From: a virus
Reading direction: 5' to 3' (one strand)
Length of the DNA stretch: 32,779 nucleotides
Virus record (IMG/VR): IMGVR_UViG_3300049893_000374
Span: 1-32,779 of that record
Shown: positions 6,960 to 15,855 of the stretch, piece after piece
How the letters are laid out: the number at the start of each line of letters is the position of its first letter
Position numbering within the stretch: position 1 is the stretch's first letter
The notes under the pieces: generated by a model
Database searches by the model: none
What the model saw: only the letters and a program-made list of their open reading frames with translations
Told to the model about the DNA's origin: nothing
Position numbers and translations under genes: made by a program

Positions 6960-6994
6960 CTTTCATGCAAATATAATTTTAGAGGAAATTATAG

Positions 6995-7098
6995 TGTAGC
7001 AGCGAGAATAGATAGGTTTAGGAGGCTATCATTATAATACGCTTGGAGAACAATTATGCAACTTATGTTTGGCAACAGTAAGTGTTCTCGCTGCTACA
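6995..7098 (+). ncRNA. candidate structured RNA closed by a 14-bp stem
   Basis: 6995-7008 and 7085-7098 are perfect 14-base inverted repeats (TGTAGCAGCGAGAA / TTCTCGCTGCTACA), extendable by a G-U and an A-U pair. Inside lie a GATAG/CTATC hairpin (7011-7030) and an ATAAT/ATTAT pair. The stem sits between a hairpin terminator and the next gene. The 5' arm starts with GTAGC and the 3' arm ends with GCTAC, the same ends as the leader hairpins at 8108, 15891, 16263 and 16545. A TATAAT (7033-7038) and a 27-codon frame lie inside, so regulation of a mini-gene is the alternative. No match to a known RNA family is recognised. Confidence 0.4.
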
Positions 7099-7139
7099 AG
7101 TATTATTTATTAAAAATAGCAAATTTTTCTTTACTTTAA
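7056..7139 (+). CDS. possible 27-aa peptide with CxxC
   Basis: ATG at 7056 is preceded by GGAG at the right distance and by TATAAT at 7033-7038. The frame (MQLMFGNSKCSRCYKYYLLK, then IANFSLL) contains one CSRC pair. Its first half falls in the 3' arm of the inverted repeat at 6995-7098, so the codons may simply reflect RNA structure. No homolog is recognised. Confidence 0.25.
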   Translation: MQLMFGNSKCSRCYKYYLLKIANFSLL

Positions 7140-10254: not shown

Positions 10255-12093
10255 ATGCAGATTGAACACCTTCCCTTGCACAAAATTACCCCATATGTGC
10301 GTAATCCTAGAAAAAATGATCCAGCAGTAGATGCAGTAGCAGAAAGCATCAGTAGATATGGATTTCAACAGCCAATTGTAGTAGACGCTGATCACGTGAT
10401 TGTGGTAGGCCACACACGCTACAAAGCAGCACGCAAACTAGGACTAACCACTGTGCCTGTGCTAGTAGCAAAGGATCTTGATAAAGATGCTGCGGCTGCA
10501 TACAGACTAGCAGACAACCGAACCAATCAATATGCCAAGTGGGATGACAGCCTACTAGCAGAAGAATTTCGACATTTATATGAAAATGTAAACAGTATCA
10601 GTGAACTCAGCGCAATGAGTGCATTCACTGAACTTGAAATTGATAGATTGTTGAATGGCAAGAATTATGGTGTTGATCCCAATGAACTAGCAAAAAATGC
10701 AGACAGAGTCTGCAACAAACGCATTGCACTACTAACACCTAAGAACAGTTATGTTAACAGAGGTGTAGCCACATACATCAATGGTTGGATTGAATGGGGC
10801 TTGCGTAATGGTGTGCAAGTAGATGTAATCAGCGATGACAACGAATTAAACAATAACCAGTTTGAACGCTACACACGTGTAAGCCAATGGGTTAGTCCAC
10901 CACAGCCAGTAAACATACCCAGCAAACTGCATGATGACAATTATATAGCAATGCGTAGTCCAGTGGTAAGACTACAAGACAGCGTTAACATTAGAACAGC
11001 ATTGTTACATGCCATGACACAGTATCATTATGATGCTATAATTTGCAATACCATTGAAACGCTGTTCACAGTAGTAAGCATGGGCTTGCACACCGAACAT
11101 CCTAACATTTACTATGCAACACACAGTTGGGTAGATGTTAACATGGGACAAAGCAACTATCAATATGATCTAACACGCAGCATCATTGCAAACAGCAATA
11201 TCAAACTATTGGTGCAAAGCGAATGGATGCGTGAACATGTGTTAAAAGGATATGGTGTCAGTGAAGATAGAATTACTGTTGCTGTGCCCATGTTAGGACA
11301 GCCAGAGTTTGTGGATAAAATTGACGCAGACTTTGAGGATCGCCGCGGAATACTATACATTGGACCTTTTGAAGATAGAAAAAATCCACAAGTGTATATT
11401 CAAGCACTAAAAAACAGTGGCTTGCCAGCATTGGTAATCACACCCAGTCAAACCAGTGCAGATAAATTTAAAAGAGAATTTTTAAAGTATAACATTGAAC
11501 ATGAGATTCATGTGGCATTAACAGGTTCAGCCAAAGTAGATGTAATGAGTCGTGCAGCACTGGCAATTATTCCCAGCAAGGACGAAACATTCTGCTACAC
11601 AGCATTTGAAGCAGCACATATTTGTAGAACAATTGTGCCTTCAAACAGAGGTTGGACCACAGCACATGATGCTTGGTGTATTAGAGTAGAAGAAGATCAA
11701 ATACCTTATGCTGTTGCAGATCATTACAATAAACCCAATGAAGAATCTGCTAAAGCAGCACTTAAACAACAATTTGCACACAGCGATAAACAAGGTTTAA
11801 AATTGATAGCAGCGCAAAGTGTAGAACCCCGAGGCAATAATGCTTTTACAAAATGGATGGAGCAAAAAGGTAAAACTACACTAAGAGACTTTTTTAACAG
11901 CAGACCTTCAAAAGTATTAGATGAAGTGTTTTATGTTGTTAGAGCACAACACAATACAGAATATGTATTTGAACACACACAAAATGATACAGTGGTAACA
12001 CAAGAAGGATATGTGCCCACTGCAGATATTACACAAGATGATATAAATGATAATTTAGCAAGAGAATTTGGATTGGAGACCATTAATGGCTAG
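10255..12093 (+). CDS. ParB-like nuclease domain fused to GT4 glycosyltransferase
   Basis: 612 residues in two parts. Residues 1-135 are a ParB/Srx-like domain: NPRKN (17-21), the GHTRYKAAR box (52-60) and ADNRTNQYAKWD (86-97). This is the version usually found at the front of phage DNA-methyltransferase fusions next to terminase. From about 155 a GT-B fold starts (RIALLTPKNSYVNRGVATY) and continues to about 500. It has an ILYIGPFEDRKNP acceptor-to-donor transition near 365 and a perfect EX7E donor-site motif, E444-TFCYTAF-E452. A nucleotide-sugar donor is expected from the GT4 fold. The acceptor is unknown: phage DNA bases, by analogy with ParB-methyltransferases, or a virion or host glycan. 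The gene overlaps terS by 8 bases, tying it to packaging. Confidence 0.85.
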   Translation: MQIEHLPLHKITPYVRNPRKNDPAVDAVAESISRYGFQQPIVVDADHVIVVGHTRYKAARKLGLTTVPVLVAKDLDKDAAAAYRLADNRTNQYAKWDDSLLAEEFRHLYENVNSISELSAMSAFTELEIDRLLNGKNYGVDPNELAKNADRVCNKRIALLTPKNSYVNRGVATYINGWIEWGLRNGVQVDVISDDNELNNNQFERYTRVSQWVSPPQPVNIPSKLHDDNYIAMRSPVVRLQDSVNIRTALLHAMTQYHYDAIICNTIETLFTVVSMGLHTEHPNIYYATHSWVDVNMGQSNYQYDLTRSIIANSNIKLLVQSEWMREHVLKGYGVSEDRITVAVPMLGQPEFVDKIDADFEDRRGILYIGPFEDRKNPQVYIQALKNSGLPALVITPSQTSADKFKREFLKYNIEHEIHVALTGSAKVDVMSRAALAIIPSKDETFCYTAFEAAHICRTIVPSNRGWTTAHDAWCIRVEEDQIPYAVADHYNKPNEESAKAALKQQFAHSDKQGLKLIAAQSVEPRGNNAFTKWMEQKGKTTLRDFFNSRPSKVLDEVFYVVRAQHNTEYVFEHTQNDTVVTQEGYVPTADITQDDINDNLAREFGLETING

Positions 12094-12481
12094 TCGTAAA
12101 CAACCCAAGATGGGAACCAAAACAGTTACTGGAGTAGTTGTGGGTAGAGAAAAAACTGTAATAGATCCAAATGAAATATATAAATTAGCACAACTAGGCT
12201 GCACCATTGAAGAAATGAGTGATTGGTTTGGTGTGCCACGTGAAACAATAAAATACAATTTTAGTGATTTTATTGCAAAAGGCCGCAGTGAAACTAAACA
12301 AGCACTAAGGCGTGCCCAAATTGCGTTAGCCCTTAAGGGCAATGCAGTAATGTTGATTTGGCTTGGTAAGAACATGCTGGGTCAAAGTGACAATCCATTA
12401 GAAACAGACAGCAGTCAAGTTTTACCATGGGTTGAATCAGAATTAACCAGAGAAGAAAATGAAGATAAACCAGTTGCGTAA
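12086..12481 (+). CDS. terS: terminase small subunit
   Basis: 131 residues from ATG 12086 (GGAG at 12075-12078); an upstream TTG in frame lacks a ribosome binding site. Residues about 28-65 contain an HTH (IYKLAQLGCTIEEMSDWFGV, PRETIKYNF). The following RRAQIALALKGNAVMLIWLG, then KNMLGQSDNP, is the classic small-terminase pattern. The protein recognises the packaging site on concatemeric DNA and hands it to TerL. It overlaps the ParB-glycosyltransferase gene. Unusually, terL does not follow directly: a structured stretch and a membrane-protein gene intervene. Confidence 0.85.
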   Translation: MASRKQPKMGTKTVTGVVVGREKTVIDPNEIYKLAQLGCTIEEMSDWFGVPRETIKYNFSDFIAKGRSETKQALRRAQIALALKGNAVMLIWLGKNMLGQSDNPLETDSSQVLPWVESELTREENEDKPVA

Positions 12482-12563
12482 GACGTGTGTCTAGAGTGTG
12501 CTACTGCACAACAGGGAGTATGTGCAGTAAATTAATCATATGATTCCGCTCTAGACACACGCA
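12482..12563 (+). ncRNA. candidate three-way-junction RNA or packaging-site structure
   Basis: 12484-12496 and 12549-12561 are perfect 13-bp inverted repeats (CGTGTGTCTAGAG and complement), extendable by a G-U and a G-C pair. Inside are a perfect 9-bp hairpin (TACTGCACA 12502-12510 / TGTGCAGTA 12521-12529, 10-base loop) and a 12-bp palindrome (AATCATATGATT, 12534-12545). Together they draw a closed three-helix junction filling the gap after terS. No T-run follows, so it is not a simple terminator. It could be an expressed RNA, a translation control element for the next gene, or a cos/pac element bound by TerS. Confidence 0.45.
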
Positions 12564-12586
12564 GCCTTTATTATGGAGATATAAGA

Positions 12587-12805
12587 ATGAAGTTACCAAA
12601 TACAGATATTTTTACACGTGAAGAAAGCAGCCACAACAGCGTGGGCTTAAACACTTTTGGCTTGTTAAGTGTAAGCCTACTATGGGGTCACATGCTGAGT
12701 CTAGTCAGTTGGTGGTGGTTGCCCGTTACAGTTATCCTAGCATTAGTAGGATATGGCACAGAAATTAGCAAACGCAAAGAGCCAGTTAACATCAAGTTTA
12801 AGTAA
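12587..12805 (+). CDS. two-helix membrane protein between terS and terL
   Basis: 72 residues with GGAGA nine bases before ATG. After a polar N terminus (1-20), residues about 21-42 (LNTFGLLSVSLLWGHMLSLV) and 44-60 (WWWLPVTVILALVGYGTEI) are hydrophobic. The C terminus is basic (SKRKEP). The size and two closely spaced transmembrane segments fit a class II holin or a superinfection/membrane protein, but the position between terminase genes is unusual for either. It overlaps the terL start (TAATG), so it is translated together with terminase. Confidence 0.65.
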   Translation: MKLPNTDIFTREESSHNSVGLNTFGLLSVSLLWGHMLSLVSWWWLPVTVILALVGYGTEISKRKEPVNIKFK

Positions 12806-14040
12806 TGCGTCTTACGGTGCCACAACAAACTATAAGTGCAAGCACAGCACGTTTCCGTTGCGTTAGTGCCGGCCGCCGTTTTGGCAAAAGTTTTCTTTCA
12901 ATTAATGAAATGGCTAAGTTTGCACGTCATCCTAAACAACGTGTAATGTATCTAGCAGTTACCCACCGTCAAGCAAAAACAGTGATATGGGAAGATTTGA
13001 AAACACAATTGATTGAACGCAATTGGGTAAAAAAAATTAATGAAAGTGAAATGCAGATATGGTTAGTTAATGGTTCAACTATAACTGTGCGTAGTGCTGA
13101 AACCAAAGACGCATTACGTGGTGGCAAGTATGACTTTATAGTGTTAGACGAAGTTGCAGACATGGACAAAGATGTTTGGTTCAGCATACTGCGTCCTACA
13201 CTAAGTGATAGACGAGGACATGCGCTGTTCATTGGCACACCCAAAGGTATGGGCAATTGGTTCTTTGATTTATGGAACAATGCTAAAACACAAACAGATT
13301 GGGCCAGTTGGCAATATACTACCATTGAAGGTGGTAATGTTCCACCAGAAGAAATTGAAGCAGCACGTCGAGACCTAGATGCTAAAACATTTGAACAAGA
13401 ATATGAAGCACAATTTGTAACATTTAGTGGACGTTGCTTTTACGCATACACTGAGGATAATTTAAAAGATCATCCAGGTATTAAAGAAGGCGAACCAGTC
13501 CATATTGGTTGCGATTTTAATACTTCACCAATCACAGCAGCATGTGCAACACGCACAGAAAAAGGACTGCACTTTTTTGATGAAATAGTCATTTATGGTT
13601 CAAACACCAATGAACTAGCAGAAGAAATACGCCGACGCTTTGGTTTTGGAAGAACAATTTTTGTTTATCCAGACAGCAGCGGTGGACGCAAGCAAACTAG
13701 TAGCGGCGGTTACAGCGATCACATTATTTTAAACAATGCCGGTTTCAAAGTAGTTGTAGATAGTATCAATCCTCCAGTTACAGAAAGTATTGCTAGCGTA
13801 AATAGTTTGCTGTGCAGCACTACTGGTGATAGACGTCTACTTATTGATAAAAACTGTAGACAAATACGCGAAAGTATGTTAAAGTATGTGTATAAGGAAG
13901 GAACACGTGTTCCCGACAAAGATTCAGGTTTTGATCACATGGCTGACTGCATACGTTATATAACACATAAACTATATCCAGTTAGACCAGTTGTATCTAA
14001 CAGTGGTAAGAGTTACAGACATACTGGTAAAATGTTATGA
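12805..14040 (+). CDS. terL: terminase large subunit
   Basis: 411 residues, the packaging motor ATPase and nuclease. The ATPase part shows Walker A SAGRRFGKS (residues 21-29), Walker B FIVLDE (111-116) and the coupling motif FIGTPKG (142-148). The RNase-H-like nuclease shows acidic residues in HIGCDFN (D237), VYPDSSG (D290) and DSGFDHMAD (D377, D381), giving a complete active site. The length is normal for a compact TerL. The start overlaps the upstream stop, and the stop overlaps the next gene (ATGA), so the packaging genes are tightly coupled. The packaging mode (cos or headful) cannot be told from the sequence. Confidence 0.95.
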   Translation: MRLTVPQQTISASTARFRCVSAGRRFGKSFLSINEMAKFARHPKQRVMYLAVTHRQAKTVIWEDLKTQLIERNWVKKINESEMQIWLVNGSTITVRSAETKDALRGGKYDFIVLDEVADMDKDVWFSILRPTLSDRRGHALFIGTPKGMGNWFFDLWNNAKTQTDWASWQYTTIEGGNVPPEEIEAARRDLDAKTFEQEYEAQFVTFSGRCFYAYTEDNLKDHPGIKEGEPVHIGCDFNTSPITAACATRTEKGLHFFDEIVIYGSNTNELAEEIRRRFGFGRTIFVYPDSSGGRKQTSSGGYSDHIILNNAGFKVVVDSINPPVTESIASVNSLLCSTTGDRRLLIDKNCRQIRESMLKYVYKEGTRVPDKDSGFDHMADCIRYITHKLYPVRPVVSNSGKSYRHTGKML

Positions 14041-15707: not shown

Positions 15708-15782
15708 GAACTTTTTTACATTTTTTTCGTTGTTTTTTCACTACAAATTTGTTGCTAAAATACAACAAAAAAGTTAGGCAGC

Positions 15783-15803
15783 GTAAGTCGTTGATTTATA
15801 TAG
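15783..15803 (+). repeat. 21-bp direct repeat, copy 1 (control region)
   Basis: Identical to 15823-15843 at a 40-bp interval (about four helical turns). It begins GTAAGTCG and ends TATATAG. Operator or replication iteron are both possible. Confidence 0.8.
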
Positions 15804-15822
15804 GCTTTTTTCTGCAGGTGCT

Positions 15823-15843
15823 GTAAGTCGTTGATTTATATAG
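15823..15843 (+). repeat. 21-bp direct repeat, copy 2 (control region)
   Basis: Exact second copy of 15783-15803, ending 12 bases before the -35 box of the plus-strand promoter, a typical operator position. Confidence 0.8.
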
Positions 15844-15855
15844 AAAAAATAGTTC

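Follow-up and report, generated by a model that had tools for sequence, protein, structure and literature searches.

On comparative sequence evidence, an RNA fold at the junction between the small and large terminase genes, terS and terL, of an uncultured phage is real: it is conserved, covarying and evolutionarily maintained. The window, by which we mean the whole stretch of DNA that was analysed, spans the 32,779 bases of one IMG/VR virus record. The original prediction had offered three roles for a fold at this site, namely a packaging RNA functionally like the pRNA of phi29-type phages, a pac or cos site bound by TerS, and a leader controlling the unit formed by a small membrane-protein gene and terL. 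A cis-acting intergenic RNA around that unit fits best of the three. With somewhat less than even confidence, we favor a model in which a cis-acting structured element of the late mRNA ends or insulates the terS segment and separates terS expression from the membrane-protein/terL unit. We consider an mRNA element acting in cis the best explanation because the element lies after a stop codon, is indifferent to the next gene and folds on the coding strand.

The gap (~100 bases) between the terS stop (12481) and the start of the next gene (12587) contains the fold, and the UAA stop of terS itself (12479-12481) lies within a conserved internal loop of the RNA. Folded as RNA, positions 12470-12575 have a minimum free energy of -39.9 kcal/mol compared with -24.4 +/- 3.3 for dinucleotide shuffles (z -4.75), none of 200 shuffles being as low. 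The architecture is a three-way junction in which a 15-bp closing stem (P1) encloses a 9-bp hairpin (P2) and a short third hairpin (P3) (Table 1). Each helical part that had been predicted exists: the closing stem of 13-15 bp, with a perfect 13-bp core (12484-12496/12549-12561), the perfect 9-bp hairpin and the 12-bp palindrome AATCATATGATT, which forms a 4-bp hairpin. The predicted limits, 12482-12563, do enclose a fold and are slightly too narrow, since the conserved part runs from GC-GTAAGA (12476-12483, which includes the terS stop codon) to CA-GC (12562-12565). By eye, a pseudoknot between GGGA of the P2 loop and UCC before the 3' strand of P1 appears possible, but we do not propose one. 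The reverse complement of 12470-12575 folds almost as well (-38.4 kcal/mol, z -5.46), so the strand must be decided by comparative data.

Table 1. Features of the terS-terL junction in the window, in order of position.
Feature	Positions	Strand	Evidence or remark
terS, small terminase subunit, 131 aa	12086..12481	+	position next to TerL conserved
Whole structured RNA element, P0 to P0'	12476..12565	+	limits from comparison; covariance model R1 match 12472-12567, 99.1 bits; covariation
P0 5' strand GC, pairs with 12564-12565	12476..12477	+	inner pair, next to the loop, covaries: CG, AU, UG, UA or GC in 23/25 elements
GUAAGA, 5' side of the internal loop (consensus RUAAGW)	12478..12483	+	UAAG in 25/25 elements; kept even with earlier terS stop
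P1 5' strand, 15-bp closing stem	12484..12498	+	compensatory changes in 13/15 pairs
P2 5' strand UACUGCACA	12502..12510	+	compensatory changes in 4/9 pairs
P2 loop, purine-rich AGGGAG	12511..12520	+	GGAG-like in 5/7 three-way members (alignments)
P2 3' strand UGUGCAGUA	12521..12529	+	covariation
P3, palindrome AAUCAUAUGAUU, 4-bp hairpin	12534..12545	+	2/4 pairs compensatory, 82% of cells paired; least certain helix
P1 3' strand	12547..12561	+	covariation
CA, 3' side of the internal loop (consensus CR)	12562..12563	+	C in 25/25, A in 22/25 elements
P0 3' strand GC	12564..12565	+	P0 covariation
A/U-rich linker with the next gene's ribosome-binding site (GGAG, 12575-12578)	12566..12586	+	outside fold; sequence, compared across relatives
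Small membrane protein, 72 aa	12587..12805	+	usual but not constant downstream neighbor
terL, large terminase subunit	12805..14040	+	PHROG phrog_2, E 5.7e-52

A search with TerL yielded loci at 49-76% identity over most of the protein, and the same three-way junction is present downstream of terS in six relatives (L002, L003, L005, L006, L010 and, from a later search, L037) whose stem sequences are largely different. Together with the window these make seven distinct sequences on fragmentary contigs, L003 and L010 being close to each other. A covariance model, R1, built from five of them (the window, L002, L005, L006 and L037) finds the remaining two, L003 at 47.3 bits (E 3.5e-9) and L010 at 39.8 bits (E 3e-7), all its other matches having E values of 0.059 or worse. 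In a model-free MAFFT alignment of the five sequences, both sides have changed in 18 of 30 pairs and 91% of cells pair, compared with means of 7.3 pairs and 70% for shuffles and at most 7 pairs for structures slid along the alignment. When all seven are included, compensatory changes are found in 20 of 30 pairs and the covariation score is 0.678, as against 0.245 for shuffles (0/500 as high) and 0.186 for the best slid version, in an alignment that was made to the R1 model and hence leans toward the structure. Because the sequences are few and related, the shuffle figures are not probabilities, and the slid controls and the compensatory changes along P1 are the stronger points. Across the seven members G:U pairs outnumber A:C pairs 13 to 2, which indicates that the plus strand is the one that folds, and the junction residues of the three-way interior are conserved within this sub-clade. 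An absence of compensatory changes in relatives, which would have counted against the functional RNA fold originally proposed, was not observed, and the covariation lends that fold strong support.

These data bear on two other readings. That the inverted repeats arose by chance or from coding constraint and have no function is scarcely credible: AT-rich phage DNA does contain other hairpins, but such an origin is contradicted by the covariation, by retention across the clade and by motif enrichment, and a chance fold was ruled out by the shuffle energies, the seven-sequence covariation and the covariation of the base motif described below. A DNA pac or cohesive-end (cos) site bound by TerS would account for the position beside terS, for the palindromic parts and for the HNH-like genes that lie beside the element in some relatives; in some cos phages HNH proteins act as partners in packaging. 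A duplex site, however, predicts conserved sequence, whereas here most stem positions vary by compensation and G:U is favored over A:C on one strand, so that the helix covariation and the G:U bias are left unexplained; a single-stranded DNA role is compatible with the counts. Inspection by eye for clustering of contig ends at the element, as a cos site would produce, gave nothing clear. We regard a TerS-bound DNA site as improbable.

Outside the three-way sub-clade it is the interior of the element that differs; the stem keeps a constant foot, a near-invariant 6x2 internal loop with the consensus RUAAGW/CR. Throughout 25 elements a C-G pair opens the closing stem after RUAAGW (once RUAAGC) and the stem ends before CR. 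On the 3' side of the loop R is A in 22 elements and G in 3, and UAAG and C are invariant, partly by construction, because the 25 were gathered in part by a finder that demanded UAAG, a stem and a following C; the seven three-way members, gathered by gene order, show the same invariance. The helices on either side of the loop both covary: the first five P1 pairs are standard in 120 of 125 cases compared with 87 expected by shuffling, and the first three P0 pairs in 48 of 75 compared with 35 (0/2000 shuffles as high for either), P0 being often unpaired past its first pair. The span between the ends of P1 ranges from 41 to 92 nt across the family and many members have no three-way junction. A fixed base with a free interior is as expected if the base is the recognised part. 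In about half of the terS-adjacent elements the loop UAA is the terS stop; in the others terS stops earlier and the loop is still kept. Stop-codon read-through was considered and rejected: a further in-frame stop lies just upstream in several members, and the loop is retained when its UAA is not the stop codon or is out of frame. The position after stop codons also brought an integron attC-like site into consideration, which was dropped on the basis of the R-box consensus.

The loop is reminiscent of a kink-turn: it is an asymmetric internal loop at the base of a stem, its long strand carries purines and a G faces an A. It differs in its 6x2 dimensions, in having C rather than G at the second pair and in having G instead of A in 3 of 25 elements. 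The 3-nt bulge and tandem G.A/A.G pairs of a kink-turn were not found in the loop, where at the second pair C faces A or U (once C); tandem sheared G.A pairs are impossible in RUAAGW/CR. The compact fold and the nearly invariant loop could also be read as those of a self-cleaving ribozyme of a new kind, which would cut the message after terS. Rfam 15 returned no family, ribozymes and riboswitches included, at the gathering threshold for the window and 20 relatives, which would fit a new class, but the invariant loop residues are few, the interior is free and the sequences contain no apparent known catalytic core, and we think catalysis very unlikely.

The motif is found mostly in one group of phages. 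Across 1.48 Mb of relatives the finder gave 33 matches compared with 4 in shuffled sequence; among the 22 distinct matches listed, 17 are no more than 15 nt from the end of terS, L003 is split from terS by an inserted gene, L033 is unrelated, and L071, L078 and L109 sit 2.7-4.3 kb downstream of terS. An IMG/VR scan that used no protein information, with the pattern GTAAGWCCTGN30-60CAGGCAACC, gave 22 stretches, of which 18 belong to this phage group and follow either terS (9) or one other gene (9), the latter assignments being confirmed by a TerL match or the upstream gene for most and by near-identity of the element for the rest; the other four are unrelated and have a P1 of only 4-5 bp. This second placement of the motif follows the gene for a protein of ~80 aa downstream of terL (L071:5885, L078:3579, L109:3208, L400, L403, L404, L411, L414, L416 and L420), and in L071 and L109 terminator-like hairpins come next. 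Two further IMG/VR patterns were less productive. The twin GTAAGACCTA..TAGGCAGC (CCTA/TAGGCAGC) gave 9 matches, none near TerS or TerL, and among the matches listed and examined for the DNA pattern GTAAGACCT..GCTACGG only the two known loci were real, the others looking like one coding stretch shared by chance.

We placed the elements on a quick IQ-TREE phylogeny of 154 TerL proteins with SH-aLRT support only, setting classes by regular expression and by hand and tying classes II and III to class I by position rather than by alignment. A clade of 36 rows (support 99) has a class I or II element directly after terS in 30, counting L003, where it sits behind the inserted gene. Since the other six (L008, L043, L046, L049, L051 and L213) are without it, the element is not indispensable. 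The 22-row sister clade has other gap sequences (class III, GTTGCCAAAC-like) or none, and in the remaining 96 rows terS mostly abuts or overlaps the next gene. The class II group nests beside L040 and L042, in which the ends are class I and the interior resembles class II, which implies that the shape of the family changes quickly. Class II elements (L053, L055, L056, L057, L061, L088 and L137) have ACCGGAAUAAUGUGU or AAGGAGGAAACUGUU interiors and long, differing stems, and a conserved GTTGCCAAAC-like core follows terS in the class III loci L012, L071, L078, L081, L091, L109, L168, L216, L217 and L219.

The surroundings of the element vary. Upstream lies the terS stop or an inserted gene, an HNH-like gene in L003 and a small ORF in L412, where the element lies 115 nt after the terS stop. 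Downstream is the membrane protein in most members, TerL in L040, L042 and L214, HNH-like or other genes in L038, L044, L045 and L410, and terminator-like sequence in L408. Across relatives the ribosome-binding site of the next gene lies outside the fold, and an A/U-rich linker follows most copies. The HNH-like genes directly before or after the element (L003 2239-2658; L038, L044, L045 and L410), whose HNH character was read by eye from the sequence, suggest that the junction is a homing target.

In the cis-acting model that we favor, the RNA would fold from the coding strand of the late mRNA directly after the terS stop codon and would end or insulate the terS part of the message. It might protect the 3' end of terS once the message is cut in the A/U-rich linker, its RUAAGW/CR loop might be recognised by an RNA-binding protein or a nuclease of the host or the phage, or it might act as a partial terminator in members where a U-run follows. 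By any of these routes terS expression could be set separately from that of the membrane-protein/terL unit. The model is consistent with a fold that is kept through most of the clade while the neighboring gene varies, and with the second placement, which is again at the 3' end of a gene and before sequence with terminator-like hairpins. Three observations count against it: the three-way interior is conserved within the sub-clade, which a mere stability hairpin would not need, the minus strand folds nearly as well, and six of the 36 clade members do without the element. The RNase III processing hairpins and intercistronic stabilisers of T7 are similar in being intercistronic, in having a long paired stem on the gene strand and in the irrelevance of the next gene's identity. 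They differ from the element in that it has a sequence-conserved RUAAGW/CR loop and a conserved three-way core. As an RNase III-type stem P1 varies in length, with 15 bp in the window and 6-7 uninterrupted bp in L007, L036 and L044.

Two readings concern transcription itself. The first, that the element is an attenuator or a partial intrinsic terminator placed between the two terminase genes, has in its favor a stable stem after a stop codon and the U-run that directly follows P0/P1 in L037, L044, L052 and L086. The window, however, has only UUUAUUAU after the stem, a scan found no terminator-like site on the plus strand at 12484-12570, and the large structured loop and the conserved RUAAGW/CR internal loop are not terminator features. 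The earlier statement that terminator features are absent holds for the element in the window, although those four relatives do have the U-run; the combination of GC-rich stem, short loop and direct U-run was not found at the element, U-runs being confined to a minority of relatives. We think attenuation unlikely. Processive antitermination or polymerase pausing, through which transcription would pass downstream terminators in the manner of the HK022 put RNAs, is suggested by the terminator-like hairpins that follow the element in L039, L408 and the second placement (L071, L109). Judged by description only, the element resembles the put RNAs as a cis-acting phage RNA that in some members has terminator-like hairpins downstream, but it usually lies inside a gene cluster rather than at a transcript start, and in most members ordinary genes, not terminators, come at once. 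This reading too strikes us as rather unlikely.

The remaining candidate is a trans-acting packaging RNA that would be released from the late transcript and join the TerS/TerL/portal machine or guide TerS. Like the phi29-type pRNA, the element is phage-encoded, ~100 nt long and located among packaging genes, between terS and terL across the clade, and in the sub-clade of the window it forms a three-way junction with conserved junction residues. The base loop is fixed and the interior differs, as if one part docked and another gave specificity. The likeness is nonetheless generic: the three-way junction is confined to seven distinct loci, the fold is not constant in the family, and a search of 12400-12650 against Rfam 15 at E values up to 10 gave chance matches only and no pRNA. 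Moreover, the element lies in mRNA 3' of terS, no promoter-like site was found upstream of it on the plus strand within the region scanned, the same motif also occurs after a gene away from terS, and the element is missing in relatives that have both TerS and TerL. The phages that use a pRNA, such as phi29, are not known to have a TerS, whereas these phages possess it, which we count against this reading. Apart from the generic junction nothing supports the phi29-like candidate of the original prediction, and we assign a trans-acting packaging RNA a low probability. A related idea is that such an RNA, its docking loop RUAAGW/CR constant and its interior specific to the lineage, works with TerS and TerL in a pRNA-like role outside the phi29 group; this seems to us equally doubtful.

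The element represents a structured RNA family of uncultured phages that has not been described before and for which a few sequences already give strong covariation. A literature search, which covered mainly open-access work and is weak evidence of novelty, found no structured RNA described at a terS/terL junction. The near-invariant internal loop is a sharp target for mutation. Should the proportion of small and large terminase be set by the element, packaging-motor stoichiometry would be under dedicated RNA control, and were the element to act in trans, packaging RNAs would extend beyond the phi29 group.

By TerL the nearest phage isolates are only ~44% identical, a sensitive nucleotide search of phage records with 12400-12650 found nothing related, and a TerL scan of cellular genomes gave only matches at 27% identity, which do not identify a host. 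TerS shares 42-60% identity with the ORFs that lie upstream of terL in relatives. Between the window (12587-12802) and L002 (2783-2998) the membrane protein is 92% identical, whereas TerS and TerL of the same two phages are 54% and 76% identical, which suggests recombination near the RNA element. Directly upstream of terS, the ORF at 10255-12093 has a ParB-like domain at its N terminus, fused to a glycosyltransferase-like region, and two direct copies of GTAAGTCGTTGATTTATATAG at 15780-15850 are possibly operators. The same phage has a second large RNA-like structured element at 6988-7106, present also in the L002, L003 and L010 records. Its long stem shows compensatory changes in two pairs, and its conserved interior GGAGAACAA and 5' arm GAGAAC are potential competitors for one and the same GUUCUC, an arrangement that looks switch-like.
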